Source: Eubacterium sp. (GTDB lineage Bacteria > Bacillota > Clostridia > Lachnospirales > Lachnospiraceae). Taken from it: 49,060 bases of DNA. The stretch lies in contig JAGABX010000120.1 in NCBI GenBank assembly GCA_017614395.1, positions 1-49,060 of the forward strand, read 5' to 3'. The notes under the pieces were generated by a model. It ran no database searches. It was not told the DNA's origin and saw only the letters and a program-made list of their open reading frames with translations. A program made the translations under genes and the position numbers. Positions within the stretch are counted from its first letter, which is position 1. Every line of letters begins with the position of its first letter. Below, piece by piece: positions 1 to 48,551 of this stretch.

Positions 1-301
1 GCTCGTTTAGCGAATCACGGGGATTCTTGTACTCGAGAATGTTTATCCGCCGAAAGAACTTGAAAATGTCCTTGTCAAACTGTACCTGTTTATCCTCAAC
101 CAGAATCACATAGTCCATCCTCGGCGGCTCCACGCCGATCTCTTCCTCCGTCAGGATATGGACAACATCCCTGAACCTGTGTGTTTCGATTCTCAGCAGC
201 GCCTCAAAGACTGCATGCCAGTCACTCCTCGGCGTAGCGCGGAGTTCCCTCAGCTCTGCGAGAAGTTCTCGGATTCTCCTCTCCTTTTCCTGTTTTTTCA
301 T
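1..301 (-). CDS. PD-(D/E)XK nuclease-like protein, N-terminal part (runs off the left edge)
   Basis: The frame is open from an ATG at 301 to the left edge (100 codons). A good ribosome binding site (AAAAGGAG, 6 nt spacing) precedes the ATG, and the ATG at 318 is closed by a stop after six codons. The N-terminus is a charged helix, followed by DWHAVFEALLRIETHRF. Residues D63 and E90-Y-K92 (in NILEYKNP) fit the D...E-x-K metal site of the PD-(D/E)XK fold. I recall similar uncharacterised proteins in Lachnospiraceae, some mislabelled as isopropylmalate dehydrogenase; that is memory, not a search. It is the third gene in the window driven by the shared promoter module. The function is unknown because the rest of the protein is missing. 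Confidence 0.75.
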   Translation of the reverse strand, partial: MKKQEKERRIRELLAELRELRATPRSDWHAVFEALLRIETHRFRDVVHILTEEEIGVEPPRMDYVILVEDKQVQFDKDIFKFFRRINILEYKNPRDSLNE

Positions 302-333
302 AGATTTCTCCTTTTCATTTTATCATGTAAAAC

Positions 334-419
334 AAAAAAACGCAACGACATTTTTGTGGAAAGCACCTACCCAAGTCATTCACTTCATGTTTTCTGACAG
401 GGTAACACTCTCCACAAAA
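334..419 (-). promoter_or_regulatory. Conserved structured leader of the left-edge gene
   Basis: On the minus strand, 411-419 (TTTTGTGGA) pairs with 352-360 (TCCACAAAA). Inside it, TACCC/GGGTA (400-404 with 368-372) and GTCA/TGAC (395-398 with 375-378) can stack. About 12 nt after the closing stem is a run of seven U (334-340), roughly 35 nt before the start codon. The same structure is kept upstream of the 6508 gene. I could not match it to a named riboswitch; attenuation is an inference. Confidence 0.55.
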
Positions 420-439
420 TCCGCTGCTCTAATAAGCCG

Positions 440-504
440 ATTATACCATATTTAGTTGTTTTTGTCTATAATCATTCAGACATCAAACAATGCCATTCAG
501 ACAT
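440..504 (-). promoter_or_regulatory. Promoter R1 with paired upstream direct repeats
   Basis: The -10 TATAAT is at 440-445 with an extended TGG before it. The -35 TAGACA is at 463-468, with a 17-bp spacer. Two identical 11-bp repeats (CATTCAGACAT on the plus strand) lie at 473-483 and 494-504, 21 bp apart, directly behind the -35. That is typical spacing for an activator binding one DNA face twice. It drives the left-edge gene. Confidence 0.75.
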
Positions 505-556
505 AGCAAGTTGAATATCCTACAAAAAATATCATAATCTTACGACCGCCTTATAT

Positions 557-583
557 AAAAAGGCACCCCCTCTCGGAGATGCC
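557..583 (-). terminator. Rho-independent terminator after the restriction-modification gene
   Basis: On the minus strand, GGCATCTCC-GAGA-GGGGGTGCC forms a 9-bp stem with a tetraloop followed by a U-run. It lies about 80 bp after the stop at 664 and is repeated at 4258-4286. Confidence 0.8.
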
Positions 584-663
584 CGTTAATAGTTATAAAG
601 CCTAAACATATAGAGACGGCGGTAGCGTAGCGGACGCCGGGTTTCCTTTCACATCAGTTTTGC

Positions 664-3486
664 TCATGCCTGCTCCGTCACCAACTGTTGATATAGCTTC
701 ATCAGTTCGGCGACGCAGGCGTCCTCGTCCATGGTTTTGTAATCGAATCCGTACGCCTTCATGACCGCGATATTGTTGGCCTGATGCGCCTTCTGCAGCT
801 CCGGCGGGGTGAGCGTCGGGTCATACAGATCCGCCAGCGAGCTGTCCGGGTAGAGCTCCCGCGCATCAAGTATGGCCTGTGCTGTTTTCTCAATGGCAGT
901 GCGCTGTTCGTCCGTGGGTGTCGGCCATGGGAAGTTGTTGTAGACGATGTCCTTTGAGTAGCGGTAATCACTTTTTATTCTTCCGCAGACAGTTCTTACC
1001 CATGACATATGTACATTAGATGTAAGAATACCAAAATCATACAAAGTAGCATCAGGAATCATCTGAACGGCATCATTGACTACGATATCAGGTGATACAA
1101 AACCAAATGGAATATATCTTCTGGTTTCTGATGAATGCCTTGGAACAATAATGTATTCAGAATCGGTATGTCTTATCTCTTGAAATAAAGTTGGTGTCTC
1201 TGCACTTTTTCGAGTTGCTTCTTTTGAACTTGCCAGACGGTATTCCTTTACTTTATTAACACGATCCATTATGAATCTCGACTCTTTAATTGATTTAGGA
1301 GAAACACCTACTAACCACAGACAATACCTTGGTTTATTGTTTATAAATTCCGAAGCACCATAGATTCTCTTTATATATTTCATTACGGCAGGATCATTCC
1401 TTTTAATTTCATCATATTCCTCCTTAGAAAGAAAAAGAAATCCACCATCTGTCGGCTTATTCCCATATACCATATCCGGGGAAGCACAGATTGCACTTTT
1501 TCTGCTTTCAACAAACACATCATCCGCATCAACAAGATATGCATTTATATTCTTACAAATAGTCTTCTTTCCGTCGGAATAAACAACTTTTTCTTTTTCC
1601 AAATCCGCCTGGCTGAAACCTACTATCACACAATGCACATGCGCCTTGGAATTGGATTCGCTGTCCCACCGAAATGTCCGGTAAGCAAAATCAATTTGAA
1701 TGTCAAATCTCTCAAACAATGGCTTCCATACACCGGCCACCTGCTCGCCCTGTGTAATGGAATTCGTCGAAACGAGCGCTGTTCTGATTTTGGTCCCAAC
1801 CATGAGTTGAGATGCCTTGAAATACCACCCGGCTACATAATCAATCTTCCCGGCTGTCTTGTAGGGCTTGCCTTTTTCATCTACATAAATGGAAAGGATG
1901 TCCTCCTTTTGTTCCTTGCTCTGCAGAGAATACCCCACAAACGGAGGATTCCCCATGATATAATCCAGCCTCTCCACCGGAACGACACTCTCCCAGTCCA
2001 TACGCAGGGCGTTGCCCTCGACGATGTTGGCGTAGGTTTTCAGCGGGAGAAAACTCAGATTCGCGTGGATCACATCCTCGGTCTGCTTCATCATCTGTGA
2101 CTCGGCGATCCACAGGGCAGTCTTCGCTACGGTGGCAGCAAAATCGTTGATCTCGATGCCATAGAACTGCCGGATGGAAACGCGTATGGGATTTGCCACC
2201 GCCTCGTCCATAAATACAATCTGCCCATCCATTTGGCTGCGATTGAGCTTTTCGAGATTGAGGCGCTCGCGGATCAGCTCGTTCTCCAATCGACGTAGGG
2301 ACAGATAGCCCTCCGTTAAAAAGTTCCCCGAGCCGCAAGCCGGATCAAGGAATGTCAGTCCGGCCAGTTTGTCCTGAAACTCGTTCAGGCGCGTCTTACG
2401 CGTGGCAACGGCCGTAATCTCACGAATGGCCGAAAGTTCCTCCCGCAAATCGTTCAGAAACAACGGGTCGATCACCTTATGAATGTTCTCAAGTGAAGTG
2501 TAATGCATCCCACCGGCACGACGCGTCTCGGGATTCAGTGTCGACTCAAACACCGCCCCGAATATTGTCGGCGAAATCTCACGCCAGTCGAACTCACGGC
2601 AACCATCCGTGATAATGAGTTGTTTGATCTCCTCAGTAAAAAGCGGTATCTCGATACTCTCATCAGAAAACAAACCGCCGTTGACATAGGGAAACGCCTC
2701 CAACGCGGGATCGTAGCCGTCTCTCTCCGCCTCCGGCGTATCGAGCATTTTAAAAAGTTCCCTCAGCTCGCGACCCCACTTCGGCGCCGGCACCTCATCC
2801 ATGTAGTCGGCGAAGAGATCCTTTTTCCCGAATATCCCAGCGTCCTCAGCATACATACAGAACACCAGGCGGACACAGAGTGCGTTCAGACTGCGAGCAG
2901 ACTCCTCCGCGTCCGGATTATGGTATTGTTTCCGCAGGGCGTCGTAAATGCGTCCGACGATGTCGCCCGCCTTGATCGAGACCTCCATCTCCTTTTTGAA
3001 AGCGAGGATGGATTCGTTGGTCAGGAAATTCAGGTAGTGGTATTCGAACGGCAGGTTTTTCAGCTCGATCGTCTGCACACGCTTCACAGGGTCGGTCTCG
3101 TTCATGTTGTAGATCCGGATCTCGGCGAAATTGCTCACGACGATCCAGTTGGCGGTCTCGTTTGTCGGGAGCCAGGTGTTGTATTCGAATGCCTGCTCAT
3201 AAGGTGTTTTGCCGTCATGCCCCTGCTGCGGTTTGTCGAGGTCGATTTTTAGGCTTTTCTGTTCGATGAGCACGCGGGTGCGTGGGAGGTAAGCATCGAT
3301 GAATTTGGTCTGACCGTCGACACGGACTTCCTTCTCAAATTCAATCCGGCCAGTGACATCCTCCATCCCCAACACATCAGAAAGAAGGGCGATCCAATAA
3401 CGCTGGGTATCGCCCTTCTCATATCCTACACCGTTCCAGTTGTTGTAAAAAGCATTGGCTGCTTCGCGCTGTGCTGCGTCTGTCAT
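664..3486 (-). CDS. MmeI-like (type IIL) single-chain restriction-modification enzyme
   Basis: A 940-residue protein with the size and layout of MmeI-type fused enzymes, in which nuclease, adenine-N6 methyltransferase and target recognition are one chain. The N-terminal part has a PD-(D/E)XK-like site, D64-x10-E75-Q-K77, after a block on cognate-site fragments (KEVRVDGQTKFIDAYLP). A helical spacer follows. SAM motif I is FLDPACGSGNF at 379-389, and the adenine methyltransferase motif IV is NPPF at 513-516. The C-terminal third should hold target recognition. No separate R, M or S gene lies nearby. The start is supported by an AGGAGG site in the shared 60-bp junction. It is third in its unit, after two small genes. 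MmeI-family assignment is strong; nuclease activity is inferred from motif. Confidence 0.88.
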   Translation of the reverse strand: MTDAAQREAANAFYNNWNGVGYEKGDTQRYWIALLSDVLGMEDVTGRIEFEKEVRVDGQTKFIDAYLPRTRVLIEQKSLKIDLDKPQQGHDGKTPYEQAFEYNTWLPTNETANWIVVSNFAEIRIYNMNETDPVKRVQTIELKNLPFEYHYLNFLTNESILAFKKEMEVSIKAGDIVGRIYDALRKQYHNPDAEESARSLNALCVRLVFCMYAEDAGIFGKKDLFADYMDEVPAPKWGRELRELFKMLDTPEAERDGYDPALEAFPYVNGGLFSDESIEIPLFTEEIKQLIITDGCREFDWREISPTIFGAVFESTLNPETRRAGGMHYTSLENIHKVIDPLFLNDLREELSAIREITAVATRKTRLNEFQDKLAGLTFLDPACGSGNFLTEGYLSLRRLENELIRERLNLEKLNRSQMDGQIVFMDEAVANPIRVSIRQFYGIEINDFAATVAKTALWIAESQMMKQTEDVIHANLSFLPLKTYANIVEGNALRMDWESVVPVERLDYIMGNPPFVGYSLQSKEQKEDILSIYVDEKGKPYKTAGKIDYVAGWYFKASQLMVGTKIRTALVSTNSITQGEQVAGVWKPLFERFDIQIDFAYRTFRWDSESNSKAHVHCVIVGFSQADLEKEKVVYSDGKKTICKNINAYLVDADDVFVESRKSAICASPDMVYGNKPTDGGFLFLSKEEYDEIKRNDPAVMKYIKRIYGASEFINNKPRYCLWLVGVSPKSIKESRFIMDRVNKVKEYRLASSKEATRKSAETPTLFQEIRHTDSEYIIVPRHSSETRRYIPFGFVSPDIVVNDAVQMIPDATLYDFGILTSNVHMSWVRTVCGRIKSDYRYSKDIVYNNFPWPTPTDEQRTAIEKTAQAILDARELYPDSSLADLYDPTLTPPELQKAHQANNIAVMKAYGFDYKTMDEDACVAELMKLYQQLVTEQA

Positions 3487-3490
3487 GGGA

Positions 3491-3550
3491 TGCCTCCTGT
3501 ATTAAAATGCTGCTATTTTTCCAATCTTATTACTAATTCCGGACTTGTTT
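3491..3550 (-). repeat. 60-bp junction repeat, copy 1
   Basis: These 60 bp are identical to 5987-6046. They encode the last 15 residues (NKSGISNKIGKIAAF, minus the first base context) and stop of the second small gene plus the AGGAGG site for the following cargo gene. Similarity continues, with a one-base indel, into the cargo ATG. Confidence 0.95.
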
Positions 3551-3759
3551 TCGCCAAACTCATCACCGAGAACCAACGACAAAGCAAGTATCTCATCCGA
3601 GGTAATTTCAAGCTTGTTTTGTTTTTTATACTGGATGTACTCTTTCATTCTGTTCCATGCCGCTTCACCACCGGCATTGCTCATTGATCCACAAACAAAA
3701 TCATGATTATCATAGATTTCTTTCAGTAATTTCATTAATTCTTTTCCGGTCTCTGACAT
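3502..3759 (-). CDS. Small hypothetical protein B1 of the restriction-modification cassette
   Basis: 85 residues beginning MSETGKELMKLLKE. I chose the ATG at 3759 because GGGAGG lies 7 nt before it; an upstream ATG at 3774 would overlap the preceding gene and lacks a clear site. Mostly helical and acidic in composition, soluble, with no signal or membrane segment. It ends in NKSGISNKIGKIAAF, exactly the tail of the 5998-6276 product, although the rest of the two proteins is only loosely alike (a Y-D/N-x-DFV motif and a following helix). The preceding gene ends 2 nt upstream. Function unknown. Confidence 0.75.
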   Translation of the reverse strand: MSETGKELMKLLKEIYDNHDFVCGSMSNAGGEAAWNRMKEYIQYKKQNKLEITSDEILALSLVLGDEFGENKSGISNKIGKIAAF

Positions 3760-3761
3760 AC

Positions 3762-4031
3762 TCAATCCTCCCATTCTTCCTCAACATAATCGACAATTGG
3801 GCGTTTACCAATAACTGTATAATCATTATATCCTTTATTAATCACGGTATAATAGTAATTACCAATCGGCTTGGTAACAATTGTTTTCATTCTATCCTCT
3901 GCCGTCATGTTTGTATTTAATTCACTCAATAAAAGAGCATATTCATTTTTAGGAAGAAGAATTTCTTCATTTAGTAATCCAATCGCGCGTTGATATCTTT
4001 CAAAATCCCTCTTCTTGAATTCCAAAGCCAT
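3762..4031 (-). CDS. Small hypothetical protein A1 of the restriction-modification cassette
   Basis: 89 residues, beginning MALEFKKRDFERYQR. The ATG at 4031 has GAGGTG very close by; a TTG two codons later has better spacing and may be the real start. The C-terminal half contains YYYTVINKGYNDY followed by K-x-P-x-x-D. This matches YYFINHGFNDY...KFPTED in the 6266-6508 product, so the two first genes appear paralogous. No signal peptide or membrane helix. Two candidate promoters lie upstream. Function unknown. Confidence 0.72.
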   Translation of the reverse strand: MALEFKKRDFERYQRAIGLLNEEILLPKNEYALLLSELNTNMTAEDRMKTIVTKPIGNYYYTVINKGYNDYTVIGKRPIVDYVEEEWED

Positions 4032-4055
4032 TCACCTCGTTTATATACATTGATA

Positions 4056-4084
4056 ACTATACCATATTTCATTTTCAAAATCAA
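4056..4084 (-). promoter_or_regulatory. Second candidate promoter of the A1-B1-restriction unit
   Basis: TTGATT at 4079-4084 and TATAGT at 4056-4061, with a 17-bp spacer and extended TGG. It is nearer to the gene than promoter R2 and lacks the 11-bp direct repeats, so it could give unregulated basal expression. Confidence 0.5.
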
Positions 4085-4133
4085 CATTTATTCGTTTACA
4101 TCCGCCAACAACATTCTGTATTCCTTCGAAGTC

Positions 4134-4198
4134 ATTATACCATATATTGCTGCTTTTGTCTATAAACATTCAGACATCAAACTTTGCCATTCAGACAT
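4134..4198 (-). promoter_or_regulatory. Promoter R2 with paired upstream direct repeats
   Basis: -10 TATAAT at 4134-4139, -35 TAGACA at 4157-4162, spacer 17 bp. The two 11-bp repeats CATTCAGACAT lie at 4167-4177 and 4188-4198, again 21 bp apart. Same geometry as R1 and R3. Confidence 0.75.
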
Positions 4199-4257
4199 AG
4201 CGAGCAGTTTATCCTACGAAAAATATCAAAATCTTCCGCCCGTCTTTTTCTGGACAT

Positions 4258-4286
4258 AAAAAAGGGCACCCCCTCTCGGAGATGCC
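4258..4286 (-). terminator. Rho-independent terminator after the dipeptidase gene
   Basis: Same 22-nt hairpin as at 562-583 (GGCATCTCC stem arm), followed on the minus strand by six U. Starts about 45 bp after the stop codon at 4332. Confidence 0.8.
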
Positions 4287-4331
4287 TGATAATACTTCCA
4301 AAGTCTAATCATATAGAACCGGCGTTACTTA

Positions 4332-5945
4332 TCACAATGATACCAATACGTTTTCTAACAGATTAAATACAATAGGAATCGAATTCAAATACAATGTTTC
4401 TTTCGGAGAATGTACATCCACCACATCCGGTCCGATTCCGGCAATGTCAAGTTCCGGATCAAGTTCACTGAAAGCTCCGCATTCGAGGCCTGCATGGACA
4501 GCAGAAGCAATCATGTCATTTCCTGTCAACTCCTTGTACACGGTAGTAATCTTGGGAACAAGTATGCTGTCTGTCTTGACCGGCCAGGCTCGTGATCCAT
4601 TTTGCGATGTATAGGAAAGATTGATATTCTTTGCAAGTTTTTCCATCTTGCTCCGTATCTCTTCCAGTTTATCCGGAGAAGAACTACGTACCAATTGTAT
4701 CATGGAGACCTCTTTTTCTGACGCATCCATCCGCCCGAGATTAGAGGAGCTCTCCACCAATCCCTCTATGGCGGTTGACATCGTGTAAACTCCGTCAATA
4801 ACCTCAGTAGCATACTTCAAAAAAGAGTTTGTCACGCTTTTCTTCAGAGCCTTCTTAGATCGTTTGGTTTTTTCTACAAAAAGATTGATTGATGTTTCGA
4901 TTCCATTATACTTCTTTTTAAGGGTTGAAAGCTGTTTTTTTACAATGCTGTCCAGTTTTTTTTCATCCGCCGGCCTGATCTGAATCACCGCTTCGGCTTT
5001 GTCCGGAATAGCATTTTCCGCAGTCCCGCCATGGAAAGATACCAGATCAAAAGGCACGCTTTTTCTCAGAGTTGTCAAAGTATCTGCCAGGGCAATGTTT
5101 CCGTTGCAGCGTCCTTCGTTGATCATCACACCGGAGTGTCCGCCCAGAAGACCTGAGATGGTGATCTTGCGTGCCGATTTTTTCTTTGACTTGATCATCT
5201 TTGGTTTTTGGGTGGTCGTAACTCTCATGTCCGCCGCCGAGCTGATCATCACGGTGTTGCTTTGCTCTCCGTCAATATTGATCAGGTATTTGACACCCGC
5301 AATATCCTCTTCTTTTATAGACAAAACTCCGGTCATATCCTCTTCTTCATCCGTAGTCAGGAAAACACGGAGAGGACCATGAGATGCTATCCTTCCCTGT
5401 GTAATCATCATGATCAGTACCACACCGGCCCCATCATCGGCTCCCAGTGAAGTGCCGTTTGCCGTCATAGTTCCTCTCTCCCTGTCAATAATGGGCTCTA
5501 TCGGATCCGTTAACGGATCAAAAACTTTCCCTTCCTCAGCAACACAGACCATATCTATGTGTGCCTGCAATCCAACGAGAGGCAAACCCTCGCATCCCGA
5601 AGTAGCGGGAATATCATAAATCAGATCGTTTGCCTCATTTTGAACCACATTATACCCATTGTTCTCGATCCACTTTTTCAAAGAATCGCTGATGGTCTTC
5701 TCGTGCTTGGATTGTCTGGGAACTGCTGCCAGTAGTTTGAATGCCTCAATAAAATCGTCTATCAGTTTCTCATCTTTCGAATCCATATTGGCTGCTGAAC
5801 CAGTGACGGAACCATTCAACAAGGATTTTTCGATATTCCTGTCCGTAACAGATGCCTGTGAATCTGCATTCCCCCCAACCGAAAACGCAGTCAGTGAAAA
5901 CAACAAAATGGCGGAAAGACATATTGGTAACACTTTTCTCTTCAT
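4332..5945 (-). CDS. pepD: Exported aminoacyl-histidine dipeptidase (PepD, M20 family)
   Basis: 537 residues. A signal peptide (MKRKVLPI..., hydrophobic to about residue 24) precedes a roughly 490-residue PepD-like di-zinc peptidase; ordinary PepD is cytoplasmic and lacks this leader. Metal-site motifs are present: LQAHIDMV (H129, D131), GADDGAG (D170-D171), TTDEEED (199-203), NIDGEQ, a GGHSG in the lid region and a C-terminal DVHSPKE histidine. No lipobox is visible, so a secreted or signal-anchored enzyme is expected. It cleaves short peptides, probably outside the membrane. It is third in its unit, and its ATG overlaps the stop of a 13-residue mini-ORF by ATGA, implying translational coupling. 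Confidence 0.88.
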   Translation of the reverse strand: MKRKVLPICLSAILLFSLTAFSVGGNADSQASVTDRNIEKSLLNGSVTGSAANMDSKDEKLIDDFIEAFKLLAAVPRQSKHEKTISDSLKKWIENNGYNVVQNEANDLIYDIPATSGCEGLPLVGLQAHIDMVCVAEEGKVFDPLTDPIEPIIDRERGTMTANGTSLGADDGAGVVLIMMITQGRIASHGPLRVFLTTDEEEDMTGVLSIKEEDIAGVKYLINIDGEQSNTVMISSAADMRVTTTQKPKMIKSKKKSARKITISGLLGGHSGVMINEGRCNGNIALADTLTTLRKSVPFDLVSFHGGTAENAIPDKAEAVIQIRPADEKKLDSIVKKQLSTLKKKYNGIETSINLFVEKTKRSKKALKKSVTNSFLKYATEVIDGVYTMSTAIEGLVESSSNLGRMDASEKEVSMIQLVRSSSPDKLEEIRSKMEKLAKNINLSYTSQNGSRAWPVKTDSILVPKITTVYKELTGNDMIASAVHAGLECGAFSELDPELDIAGIGPDVVDVHSPKETLYLNSIPIVFNLLENVLVSL

Positions 5946-5983
5946 AGTAATTTCCCCGTTATTTCTGCCATGGTGTCAGTCAT
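5942..5983 (-). CDS. 13-residue mini-ORF, apparent remnant of a former cargo start
   Basis: The shared junction repeat supplies AGGAGG and an ATG at 5983. Translation gives MTDTMAEITGKLL and stops in an ATGA overlap with pepD. The restriction enzyme behind the other junction also begins MTD. I infer that the first codons of an earlier cargo gene were kept when pepD was joined in, and now couple its translation. Confidence 0.5.
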   Translation of the reverse strand: MTDTMAEITGKLL

Positions 5984-5986
5984 GGG

Positions 5987-6046
5987 TGCCTCCTGTATTA
6001 AAATGCTGCTATTTTTCCAATCTTATTACTAATTCCGGACTTGTTT
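5987..6046 (-). repeat. 60-bp junction repeat, copy 2
   Basis: Identical over 60 bp to 3491-3550: tail of the second small gene, stop codon, and ribosome binding site for the cargo. Confidence 0.95.
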
Positions 6047-6276
6047 GTTTCAAACTCTTCTCCTTCACCATCTTCAGCGAGTTCAACCGGTTTCCCAATT
6101 CCAAGGCAATCCCATAATACCCTCATTATGTCTTGTGTATCCGAATCCGGATTTATCCTCATTTGTTCCAATACAGCCCGGCTAATATCGTCATCCCTTT
6201 CCATCCATCGAGATGTGCTGTTGACAAAGTCATCATAGCTTCCCGGAACCGCTCTTAGCATGTCCTTATAACTCAT
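5998..6276 (-). CDS. Small hypothetical protein B2 of the dipeptidase cassette
   Basis: 92 residues beginning MSYKDMLRAVPGSYDDFV. The ATG at 6276 has AGGAGG at good spacing; the longer reading from 6360 runs through the upstream gene and has no site. It carries a helical segment with WMERDDDISRAVLEQM and an acidic stretch (AEDGEGEEFE) before the invariant tail NKSGISNKIGKIAAF. Its start overlaps the end of the preceding gene by 11 nt, so the two are probably translated together. Soluble; function unknown. Confidence 0.75.
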   Translation of the reverse strand: MSYKDMLRAVPGSYDDFVNSTSRWMERDDDISRAVLEQMRINPDSDTQDIMRVLWDCLGIGKPVELAEDGEGEEFETNKSGISNKIGKIAAF

Positions 6277-6508
6277 GTCTATTACACCTCCTGTCTTCAG
6301 TCGGAAACTTTGCAGTAAACTCATAATCATTGAAACCATGATTGATAAAATAATACTCATATGACGGACTATTCACATTATTCGAATGAGTTTCGATCAC
6401 GCACAGAACTTCACCCTTTTTTTGATACCTGACATGCCAAACCGAGTTTATTTCGTGCGTGACCTTGACAGCCTCCTTCTTCGTAATTCGTAAAGATTCA
6501 TTATTCAA
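6266..6508 (-). CDS. Small hypothetical protein A2 of the dipeptidase cassette
   Basis: 80 residues with a TTG start at 6508, preceded by AAGGGTGAG at about 7 nt; no in-frame ATG is available near it. Begins (M)NNESLRITKKEAVK. The end, YYFINHGFNDYEFTAKFPTED, matches the same region of the 3762-4031 product and marks the pair as paralogues. The leader of this transcript is the conserved structured R leader. No known family recognised. Confidence 0.7.
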   Translation of the reverse strand: MNNESLRITKKEAVKVTHEINSVWHVRYQKKGEVLCVIETHSNNVNSPSYEYYFINHGFNDYEFTAKFPTEDRRCNRHEL

Positions 6509-6546
6509 TTATGCACTCACCCTTTCTGTGTATTTTAACATGTAAG

Positions 6547-6634
6547 AAAAAAAAACGCAACGACAATTTTGTGAAAAGCACCTACCCAAGTCATTCACTT
6601 CATGTTTTCAGACAGGGTAACACTCTCCACAAAA
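6547..6634 (-). promoter_or_regulatory. Conserved structured leader of the dipeptidase unit
   Basis: Same nested stems as at 334-419. The closing stem (6626-6634 with 6566-6574) differs at its base by a wobble-tolerated change and is followed by eight U (6547-6554). The internal TACCC/GGGTA stem is unchanged. Confidence 0.55.
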
Positions 6635-6654
6635 TCCGCTGCTCCAATAAGCCG

Positions 6655-6719
6655 ATTATACCATATTTAGTTGTTTTTGTCTATAAACATTCAGACATCA
6701 AACACTACCATTCAGACAT
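6655..6719 (-). promoter_or_regulatory. Promoter R3 with paired upstream direct repeats
   Basis: -10 TATAAT at 6655-6660, -35 TAGACA at 6678-6683, spacer 17 bp. The 11-bp repeats lie at 6688-6698 and 6709-6719, 21 bp apart. Drives A2-B2-pepD. Confidence 0.75.
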
Positions 6720-6735
6720 AGCTGTTGGCTGTTTC

Positions 6736-8949
6736 TCACTCATCCAACATAATAAAATCAATTGTCCTGGCCGTGAGGTCCACGCGGGCAACCTGAACAC
6801 GCACGGTCTGACCGAGTCGGTAGATACGGCGGCTGCGATGACCGATGACACGGAACTTCTCCTCCTCGTAATCGTACCGGTCGTCCTTCATATCAGTCAG
6901 ACGAACCATGCCCTCAACAGTATTCGGCAATTCGACGTAAATGCCCCAACTCGTCACTCCGCTGATAACACCCTCGTACTCATCACCTATATGATCCTCC
7001 ATGTAGGCGACCTTTTTCAGGCGATCCACCTCCCGCTCTGCCTCATCCGCACGGCGTTCCAGTTCGGAGGATTTTCGCGCAACATTTGACAGGATTTTAG
7101 CGTAATGGCTCATCCGCTCGGGCGGCAACATTCCGCCTGCAAATCCGGAGGATGAATTCTTTGCACGAACAGCACTCTTTCCGCCTACACCTCCTCCTGC
7201 CATTCCGCCGTGCCTGTACTCTTTCAGTATCCTGTGAATCTGCAGATCAGGGTAACGGCGGATCGGCGAGGTAAAATGACAATAGTATTTCGCGGCAAGA
7301 CCAAAATGGCCATCACAACTCGTCCTATATTCCGCGCGCATCATCGCCCGCAAGGTAAGCTGCGTAAGAAATGATTCCTCCGGCGTGTCTTTAATTGAAT
7401 CCAGCATCGAGCGGATTGTTTTCGGATGAATTTCCCCCTGCCCGATTTTCATTGAGTGTCCGAAAAAAGCAGTAACTCGCGATAAATCCTTGATCTTCTC
7501 ACGATCCGGCTCGTCATGGCAACGGTATACAAACGGCAGTTCAAGCCAATATGCCTCCTCTGCCACTGTCCGGTTTGCCGCCAGCATGAACTCCTCGATG
7601 ATCCGCGTCGCGATATTGCGATCGTATGGATAAATATCCGTCGGTCGTCCCGATGCGTCAAGGTCTATCTTGCACTCCGGCAGATCAAAATCTATCGATC
7701 CGTGCTTTATACGCCGGCGGTTCAGTTTCCCGGCAACCTCCTCCATCAGGAGATACCAGGGGATCCTCTTTTTGTATCTGTTAAAAAGCTCGAGACTCTC
7801 GCCACCGGAAGATTTAGCTGCTTTTTTTATCTGATGCAGAGAAATTTCAATTAATTTGCTCTTTTGTTTTTCCCCGGTCCTATTCTTTTTGTCGGATCTT
7901 GCATTGTCAAATCCGGCTAATTCTGTTCCATCACTCTCGTTAATTGCTCCCGGATTTAAGCTACTATCTCTGTAGGAACCTGTGCCATGCGCCATCTCAA
8001 TCAATGCCGCCACATCATGATAGGTCATACGCTCATTGACATTGATCACCGACTCAACAATCTCATGGGAAACAACCTTGCCATGCTCGTTGAGCTGCAT
8101 CACACAGCTGAGCGTAAGGCGATCCTCGCCCTCGTTCAGGGAACAGATGCCGTTTGATAATTTCCTCGGAAGCATCGGAATCACACGATCTGCAAGATAA
8201 ATACTCGTCCCACGTTTCAACGCTTCCCTGTCTAAAAGAGAATCCTCTGTGACATAATGCGACACATCAGCTATATGGACTCCCAATTCATATCCGGTTT
8301 TAGTCCTGCTGAGCGTGATAGCATCATCAAAATCCTTGGTGTCATCGCCATCAATAGTCACTGTCACAAGATCACGGAAATCCCTGCGCCCCTTGCGATC
8401 CGCGCGCGATACCGATGATGGGAGTCTCCTCGCCTCCTTTGCGACATCGATAGGAAAATCCGTCGGCAGCTCCATGCCACTGATAACAGATTCAACATCA
8501 ACTCCCGGCTCAGTTAGATAGCCCAAAACCCGTGTTACCGCCCCTTCAGGACTCTTTCCCTCCTCAGGGTATGCCGTTATCTCGACCTGAACCTTCTGTC
8601 CGTTTTTCGCACCCTGCGTCATTCCCTTCGGGATATAAAAATCAGGCAGTTTTGTATCATCAGGCAGCACAAATGTTGTTTTACCGTTTTTCTGAAACGT
8701 CCCGACAATACTCGTCAATGCCCTTTTCAACACACGATCGATTTCACCTTCGGATTTATGCCTGCCGTTTTCGCGCTGTTTGATGACAACAACTCTGACT
8801 GTATCGCCATTCATCGCACTGCCTGTACGCCGCTCGGAAACAAATATGTCCTCATCCAAATCATCTACACGCACAAACCCAAAGCCCTGTTTCGTTCCCA
8901 TATACGTTCCGATGTAAACAGGGTATTCTACCTTCACTTTTTTTGCCAT
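6736..8949 (-). CDS. rnr: Ribonuclease R (3'-5' exoribonuclease)
   Basis: 737 residues. N-terminal cold-shock-like RNA-binding region, RNB catalytic domain with DGDDTKDFDDAI (201-211) carrying the metal-binding aspartates, CHFTSPIRRYPDL, and a C-terminal S1 domain (about 655-735). It degrades structured RNA and takes part in trans-translation quality control. Two segments look inserted: a low-complexity stretch at about 322-385 inside the RNB domain, and a glycine-rich loop (HGGMAGGGVGGK) at about 580-612. Both lie where surface loops are expected, and the catalytic motifs are intact. secG lies upstream behind a terminator; the usual downstream neighbours smpB and ssrA are replaced by the accessory island. 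Confidence 0.95.
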   Translation of the reverse strand: MAKKVKVEYPVYIGTYMGTKQGFGFVRVDDLDEDIFVSERRTGSAMNGDTVRVVVIKQRENGRHKSEGEIDRVLKRALTSIVGTFQKNGKTTFVLPDDTKLPDFYIPKGMTQGAKNGQKVQVEITAYPEEGKSPEGAVTRVLGYLTEPGVDVESVISGMELPTDFPIDVAKEARRLPSSVSRADRKGRRDFRDLVTVTIDGDDTKDFDDAITLSRTKTGYELGVHIADVSHYVTEDSLLDREALKRGTSIYLADRVIPMLPRKLSNGICSLNEGEDRLTLSCVMQLNEHGKVVSHEIVESVINVNERMTYHDVAALIEMAHGTGSYRDSSLNPGAINESDGTELAGFDNARSDKKNRTGEKQKSKLIEISLHQIKKAAKSSGGESLELFNRYKKRIPWYLLMEEVAGKLNRRRIKHGSIDFDLPECKIDLDASGRPTDIYPYDRNIATRIIEEFMLAANRTVAEEAYWLELPFVYRCHDEPDREKIKDLSRVTAFFGHSMKIGQGEIHPKTIRSMLDSIKDTPEESFLTQLTLRAMMRAEYRTSCDGHFGLAAKYYCHFTSPIRRYPDLQIHRILKEYRHGGMAGGGVGGKSAVRAKNSSSGFAGGMLPPERMSHYAKILSNVARKSSELERRADEAEREVDRLKKVAYMEDHIGDEYEGVISGVTSWGIYVELPNTVEGMVRLTDMKDDRYDYEEEKFRVIGHRSRRIYRLGQTVRVQVARVDLTARTIDFIMLDE

Positions 8950-9011
8950 TAATATATACTCCTAAATAGAATTACATTTCAAACTATTGTAATTCCCGCA
9001 TGTCCTCATAA

Positions 9012-47740: not shown

Positions 47741-48463
47741 TTATTTACCGGTATTATATAACTTGAAATTCGTTTCGTCAAATTCTTTGCGGACAGCTCC
47801 GATATATGTCCGCCCGATATCCAGATATCCGCATCCGTTTTTCATCTCAAGGACCATGTTTTTCAGATCTATGCAACGGATATAGCTCCGATTGACCACG
47901 GTTCCTCTGTGTATCCGGACAAACTGTTCCCCGAAAACATCCACAAACTCCCCGAGGCTCAGTGACGGAACCCTCAGATTGATCGTTGTTGTATGTATAG
48001 TAACCGACCTGTCAGTCCTATCCAGATAAAGTATCTCACGTGGATATATCGGATATCGGTCCTTCCCGACAGTAAAAATGATCGGTCTGTTTTTCTCGTT
48101 ATCAGCCATACGCTTCATACACAGCACCAGAATCTGCATGATCTGCATAGGAGCGATCGGTTTTATAATATAGTCATAACAATGGATCTCATGAAACGCC
48201 CACCATTCAAGCTTTCTGTTGTTTGCGAGAAAAAGTATGGGAGTCATGCACTGCCTGGGAACCTGACGTATATAATCCGCCAATTCCACCCCCTTTTTCT
48301 CTCTCCACTCAAGGTCTATGATTATCATGGTGATTTCATTATAGCAGATATGTTTTTTTACCTCTGCTGCGTTTCTCGTTATCAGGACTTCGCTATCCGG
48401 GACTCTGTCACCCATTTGCTTTATAACGGAGCTCTCAGCACCATAAATCAAAACACAAGGCAT
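47741..48463 (-). CDS. LytTR-family response regulator with degenerate receiver
   Basis: 240 residues from the ATG at 48463 (GGAGG, 5 nt). The N-terminal receiver (1-120) keeps the phospho-accepting aspartate in MIIIDLEW and the lysine in YIIKPI, but the acidic pair normally in IVDDD is replaced by YGAE, so phosphorylation may be weak or absent. The C-terminal LytTR DNA-binding domain (about 135-235) has YPREILYLDRTDRSVTIHT and FVRIHRGTVVNRSYI. No sensor kinase lies beside it. Confidence 0.88.
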   Translation of the reverse strand: MPCVLIYGAESSVIKQMGDRVPDSEVLITRNAAEVKKHICYNEITMIIIDLEWREKKGVELADYIRQVPRQCMTPILFLANNRKLEWWAFHEIHCYDYIIKPIAPMQIMQILVLCMKRMADNEKNRPIIFTVGKDRYPIYPREILYLDRTDRSVTIHTTTINLRVPSLSLGEFVDVFGEQFVRIHRGTVVNRSYIRCIDLKNMVLEMKNGCGYLDIGRTYIGAVRKEFDETNFKLYNTGK

Positions 48464-48551
48464 ATTCACCTCCATAACCAAACACCAGCTTTAATAATTG
48501 CTTTACTCGCAAATTCGGATGGTTTCCGCTCCACACGTCCGCACACCGGCT

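Follow-up and report, generated by a model that had tools for sequence, protein, structure and literature searches.

Two small-gene pairs in a regulated-looking Lachnospiraceae island as probable members of a phage portal-tail toxin-immunity family

In polymorphic toxins, the toxin domain forms the C-terminus of a carrier that varies, the immunity gene lies directly behind it, and stand-alone toxin-immunity cassettes also exist (PMC3482391). In the MuF toxins of temperate phages, such domains sit on a head-module protein, in a portal/MuF neighbourhood (PMC5576092), and the PBECR domains of polyvalent phage proteins are small, BECR-like predicted RNases that are fused to portal or MuF proteins or occur solo (PMC5512222). 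In CdiA-CT/CdiI of Klebsiella pneumoniae 342, the toxin is a small BECR tRNase that has its own immunity protein (6cp9; PMC9086364). We describe two copies of a gene pair, A-B, in a 49,060-base stretch of DNA (the window) from the Lachnospiraceae bacterium Eubacterium sp. (contig JAGABX010000120.1). Our main conclusion, which we hold to be probable, is that A-B are stand-alone toxin/immunity modules of phage portal-tail origin that were captured behind a shared promoter; A is likely the toxin, B likely the immunity protein, and the window pairs would be stand-alone copies.

The window is an entire contig (C111) of a 2.6 Mb genome, which places the finding at a contig end. All window features given here are on the minus strand, where two consecutive units, A2-B2-M20 peptidase (6722-4265) and A1-B1-MmeI (4246-561), each run in the order promoter, gene A, gene B, larger gene, terminator. 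This order had been proposed in an earlier, sequence-only reading of the same DNA, and is borne out by the coordinates and by a promoter and terminator scan. The genes of the putative toxin A2 (80 aa, 6266..6508) and the putative immunity protein or antitoxin B2 (92 aa, 5998..6276) overlap by 11 bases; in unit 1, the stop codon of A1 (89 aa, 3762..4031) comes 2 bases before B1 (85 aa, 3502..3759). The scan picked up both terminators (4265..4286 and 561..584) and three TAGACA-17-TATAAT promoters, at 6655..6683 (with TG before the -10), 4134..4162 and 440..468. These three are the top scorers among 18 promoter-like sites, and there are six terminator-like sites; since shuffled sequences give means of 11.7 and 5.2, respectively, the scan alone is not proof. 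The two complete units already described thus stand, with one addition: a third promoter copy (440-503), whose 191-bp leader (317-507) is 95% identical to that of unit 2 (6532-6722). It precedes an unrelated gene that is cut by the contig end (start only, 2..301) and obtained no confident family from Pfam.

A1 and A2 are 31% identical, and the C-terminal motif NxGxNDY...KxPxxD that had been noticed in them is real. As for the B proteins, said to differ apart from a common tail, the tail identity holds, and the likeness is not confined to it: both match one family profile, in whose building they were used. Profiles of the A and B families, the building of which had also been suggested, were run over 2280 stop-to-stop open reading frames (ORFs) of 21 loci. 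The A profile gave 18 matches (E 1e-33 for A2 and 1e-25 for A1, both themselves in the profile, as is B1 in the B profile that it matches at 8e-20), and a B match lies directly behind in 16 of them. By this genomic pairing A-B is a unit; because most loci were fetched on account of A or B, 16/18 describes pairing and not frequency, and it becomes 15/17 when the viral loci L151 and L152, which look like one virus in two samples, are counted once. Some places were fetched twice (L025/L093, L023/L094, L024/L096), L092 (a second RUG13856 contig, in which B runs to the contig end) is outside the 21 loci, the start of A is not resolved in L102, and L091 lacks the beginning of the A domain. The B genes of L109 (a weak match, E 0.008), L110, L116, L102 and L151/L152 are absent from the B profile. 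The A-B order, with genes overlapping or nearly touching, is conserved in several genera and in phage contigs, and pairs were found in several of the class's families as well as outside the class. A itself is rare, with 2 of 39 genomes of the genus, 4 of 392 of the order, 5 of 391 of the class and 2 of 398 of the phylum, counts that each include the window's own genome and come from searches with differing A profiles. One of the relatives of A1 (57% identical) is in G011, a genome placed in the same genus as the source genome.

Exceptions to the pairing bear on a different idea, namely that chromosomal A is inactive or repurposed and that B is an orphan immunity shield against A delivered by phages or competitors. 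Three B matches have no A (L024, L025 and L100), although L025 begins about 33 bases before B, too near a contig end to tell; one B of genome G158 has only an A remnant ahead; and the charge is lower in most stand-alone A. Since A stays open with B in both window units and in both G011 pairs, we find this idea improbable. Distant A matches in L111 (G635) and L112 (G445) have no B gene and an extra C-terminal part. By reading, an A-like frame before B in L092 seems reduced to its final codons (around 4840-4880), and L098 (G158 C80, 3925-6654) holds an A remnant with B, a DNA methylase, an S-type gene and a linker-A tail with B; this type I-like restriction-modification (R-M) set between two putative toxin-immunity modules recalls MmeI in the window.

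In phages, A is found at the C-terminal end of a carrier protein. In the G133 prophage, a 643-codon portal gene (PHROG portal, 1e-23; Pfam Phage_portal, 8e-8, below the Pfam cut-off) carries in a single open frame a C-terminal A domain after GEWNEDDHPRDEKGKF; B follows directly, and then a head-morphogenesis gene (PHROG, 2e-61). The gut viral contigs L151 and L152 have the portal sequence in two ORFs (PHROG portal, 1e-7 in L151), followed by a linker, A, B, a small gene and a head gene, the last called by its likeness to that of G133. The A carrier matches portal families and not MuF, and the head-morphogenesis gene is separate. In another viral contig, L102, A and B lie ahead of a tape-measure gene. 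The linker motif between portal and A is WNEDDHPRDExGRF, and traces of it accompany A elsewhere: in G158 and G753 remnants of the linker go with A, in stretches where reading showed no cluster of phage genes, and stand-alone A of G372 and G1148 begins with D..G.PF..PT, as ahead of A in the G133 portal.

When the portal-linker segment was compared with viral contigs, 14 loci were obtained. The linker is readable in or next to eight (L151, L152, L153, L160-L164); in the other six (L154-L159) the portal part is matched and the frame ends ahead of the linker. Behind the linker, carriers of portal type, or without assigned family, bear unrelated C-terminal domains. The tail is A in L151/L152, topoisomerase IB in L161 and LPD3 in L160, there on a portal-MuF protein; L162-L164 have tails without assigned family, and in L153 a separate gene stands behind the portal. 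The L163 carrier has a portal match, and those of L161, L162 and L164 are without assignment. Searches of other collections gave little: the G133 A domain matched two records of one phage among phage records (E 0.5, 40% of the query) and no plasmid record, the linker segment matched no phage record, and no relatives came out of viral sequences scanned with either individual A domains or a degenerate motif of A.

The predicted structure of A2 is a helix with four strands, and the predicted A fold weakly resembles BECR ribonuclease toxins, the best structural match being 6cp9; the invariant His in the helix and Ser/Thr in strand 4 of the usual BECR form are absent among 14 A sequences. B2 is predicted as four helices with a disordered C-terminal tail. 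At E 0.001, neither A nor B has a match in Pfam or NCBIfam, the window's A and B proteins have none in PADLOC, and the part of the A/B set compared with PHROGs has none there (the best E for a B is 0.004). Pfam includes PBECR models. Sequence searches of the PDB with the A and B profiles reached best E values of 0.046 and 0.0011, over short segments of proteins that are unrelated. With B, Foldseek gave a best E of 1.2, and Rfam had no hit on the window.

A type II toxin-antitoxin (addiction) module of the ordinary kind, acquired by phages, with B as an intracellular antitoxin and with units that stabilise the island, would also consist of two small overlapping or touching genes in which no signal sequences are seen by reading. 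Several stand-alone loci, one of them adjoining a Phd-like antitoxin gene (by reading), would suit it as well, as would the R-M enzyme adjacent in the window and the DNA methylase/S-type set lying between two modules in G158 (by reading). Yet A is fused to portals through a linker that elsewhere bears other domains, linker-like remnants precede stand-alone A, B shows no recognised DNA-binding domain and no hit in library searches at E 0.001, and membership of a known type II toxin or antitoxin family was not found at that threshold in Pfam, PADLOC, PHROGs or NCBIfam. We regard such a module as rather unlikely, and retain the portal-tail toxin-immunity origin.

Behind A-B, the next gene varies at nearly every locus. 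In unit 1 it is an MmeI-type IIG R-M enzyme (940 aa, 664..3486; Pfam MmeI_Mtase, 7e-86; PADLOC type IIG) and in unit 2 an M20 family peptidase (4332..5945; Pfam Peptidase_M20, 5.5e-10). Elsewhere, with labels assigned mostly by reading, it is an AAA ATPase, a recU-like gene, the Phd-like antitoxin gene, a helix-turn-helix gene (twice) or phage head or tail genes, and on contig C17 of G011 the A1-B1 pair is followed by a terminator-like hairpin and no cargo, with a proS-like gene beyond. Interchangeable cargo, which the sequence-only reading had made part of the system, is thus not upheld, and A-B as factors that process or mobilise cargo were dismissed, the cargo being elsewhere absent or different. 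M20 relatives are present in 34 of the 39 genus genomes at E 1e-40; because the alignment of the four closest (49-53% identity) starts only at residue 55-56 of the window copy, this copy has an extra N-terminus of about 54 residues, signal-like by reading. In G011, an A2-B2 type pair lies about 2.6 kb upstream of an M20 gene, with other genes between, and in the source genome a second M20 copy precedes a proS-like gene; these coincidences may reflect old shared neighbourhoods.

The junctions of the units nevertheless carry repeats. Besides the leaders, 440-552 is 85% identical to 4134-4246 and 553-624 is 83% identical to 4256-4327. At the B-cargo junctions the identity is exactly 60 bp (3491-3550 = 5987-6046), as had been reported, against a chance expectation of about 8 bp between two 250-mers; the block codes for the same 15 residues at the tail of both B proteins, where the predicted structure is disordered, then the stop and TACAGGAGGCA, the cargo ribosome binding site. 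As the G011 relative of B1 (64% identical) ends in SSIVGKVAAF and relatives of B2 end otherwise (for example AAPAFATVG, SAAVGIRAVY and NTAARAAY), the tail looks native to B1 and seems acquired by B2. The likeness of unit 2 to unit 1 continues past the ATG, with ATGACnGAC as at the start of the MmeI gene, leaving a 13-codon mini-ORF, MTDTMAEITGKLL (5942..5983; by reading), that begins like the MmeI gene and overlaps the peptidase start (ATGA); for this reason, we infer that recombination probably copied a B1-tail/MmeI-start block into unit 2. The exact tail was seen only in the window's own genome, in a search of that genome, and a B1 search of 61 genomes found one gene, of the same genus, with a diverged tail. 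Matches of B1 in G001, G004 and G024 (frames of 276-280 aa) were dismissed as relatives: L009 and L011 share only a short stretch of longer proteins, and L010 was not resolved on the one strand translated.

The repeats and the shared block point to recombination between the units, so this much of the proposed homologous recombination at the junction is retained and cargo swapping is not. A system in which A-B actively mobilises or processes a swappable third gene would explain the identical junction, cargo ribosome binding site included, and the repeated leader and terminator-promoter spacers. It is very improbable given that no recombinase gene is among the ORFs of 1-9000 (by reading), that the exact tail was found only in the window's own genome, the one searched for it, with a diverged tail in the same-genus B1 relative, and that elsewhere the genes next to A-B are unrelated, or a hairpin follows without cargo. 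The arrangement is real and unusual; most likely, its pairs are stand-alone members of an unannotated toxin-immunity family of phages, in an island that is regulated and defence-like.

Regulation is suggested by a direct repeat of 21-bp period, TGTCTGAATG-N11-TGTCTGAA, that we call the operator. Exact copies precede unit 2 (6690..6718, the second repeat ending 4 bp before the -35), unit 1 (4169..4197) and the third promoter (475..503). The genome has five exact matches, one with one mismatch and one with two; three further sites at three mismatches look like chance (a reversed control gives 2 at ≤3 mismatches). Because the operator also precedes four other loci of the source genome, the promoter module is not the island feature it had been taken for. 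Nor is it a property of A-B: at ≤4 mismatches the operator was not found in L091, L092, L093, L095, L084, L085, L089, L025 and L013, several of which hold little upstream DNA.

Across the genus, 37 sites with ≤2 mismatches occur in 14 of 39 genomes (reversed-pattern control, 5). The best -35/-10 lies exactly 4 bp downstream of the operator at 17 of 26 sites examined (background 7.9%), and the promoter score behind it is at least 9/12 also at 17 of 26 (background 3.5%); the fraction is flattering (17/37 if all others fail), since 11 sites were omitted for looking less like the consensus (three in G028, two in G024, and those of G015 C45, G005, G026, G017, G062 C2 and G027 C3). Some sites, among them those of L068, L072 and L080-L082, have no convincing promoter and may be chance. 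Behind the operator, G000 C4 and G010 have a prepilin-peptidase-like gene, an unassigned gene and a T2SSE ATPase gene, which we read as a Tad-like pilus operon; of this cluster, G011 C11 shows the prepilin-peptidase-like gene, the first and only one in the stretch read. DUF5688 genes follow in L028 and L032 (G000 C104 and C69), with similar proteins, by reading, in G011, G061 and G012, and small genes with Uma2 in G000 C151. In G011, the operator is also ahead of the A2-B2 type pair and of a solo B. Its contig C5 has the operator before PDDEXK_2-like genes twice (L065 and L066, at 17k and 27k); these PD-(D/E)XK transposase-like genes are very similar, the second is in two ORFs, and the one tested is below the Pfam cut-off.

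Two direct repeats with a period of about 21 bp just upstream of the -35 fit a LytTR operator in geometry, the sequence less so. LytTR repeats are mostly 12 bp apart and usually 10 bp from the -35, or 4-11 bp in S. mutans (PMC6193735). A LytTR response regulator at 47741-48481 (Pfam LytTR, 5.5e-12) is an unproven candidate for operator binding. We found no paper naming DUF5688, and none combining LytTR, direct repeats and Lachnospiraceae.

These observations are probably best joined as follows. A would be a small domain of about 60 aa that phage portal proteins bear as an interchangeable C-terminal end, attached through the WNEDDHPRDExGRF linker, and its immunity protein would be B, coded directly behind. 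Two diverged A-B pairs would have been captured as ordinary chromosomal genes in a Lachnospiraceae genome, where they came to lie behind an activator-type promoter common to part of the genus and next to a peptidase and an R-M enzyme. A may damage RNA, to judge by its BECR-like predicted fold, unless held by B; the pair might then protect from phages or neighbours with a related toxin, B acting as immunity, and/or stabilise the island as an addiction module. The junction repeats (leader, terminator-promoter spacer, B tail) would allow recombination between units, by which B2 probably got its B1 tail together with the MmeI gene start. A bolder version, which we put forward tentatively and consider less likely to be right than wrong, is that rumen Lachnospiraceae have co-opted a new phage portal-tail toxin-immunity family and placed it, along with R-M, a Tad-like pilus and DUF5688, in one activator-controlled (LytTR-like) regulon; if so, antagonism, DNA restriction and the expression of pili would be turned on jointly, as parts of a coordinated programme of conflict. 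The analysis suggests a testable function, as toxin and immunity protein, for two unannotated families of small proteins, and ties such modules, through an operator shared in the genus, to restriction enzymes and pilus-like genes. Besides MuF, the portal, with its tail behind a recognisable linker, may also carry polymorphic effectors of phages, and the NEDDHPRD-type linker may be a handle for harvesting further uncharacterised phage effector domains.

The statement that no described system has this form was too strong, the layout being that already known from polymorphic toxin/immunity cassettes (PMC3482391); here, however, the A and B families are unmatched in the libraries, toxicity is putative, and the window copies have no carrier gene beside them, being found instead with an R-M gene behind a promoter that looks regulated. 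Compared with MuF toxins (PMC5576092), the A carrier is the portal itself, and the MuF-like head gene comes further downstream, after B. A resembles PBECR domains (PMC5512222) in being fused to portals and also found solo, and its predicted helix and four strands recall their helix with four or five; it differs from them in lacking a Pfam hit and the conserved His plus Ser/Thr, and in having a partner gene, B. LytTR-type operators (PMC6193735) are, like the operator described here, direct-repeat pairs, with a period close to 21 bp and a distance of 4-11 bp to the -35 that follows; TGTCTGAATG, however, read in the same orientation, is no match to ACCACTTAY.
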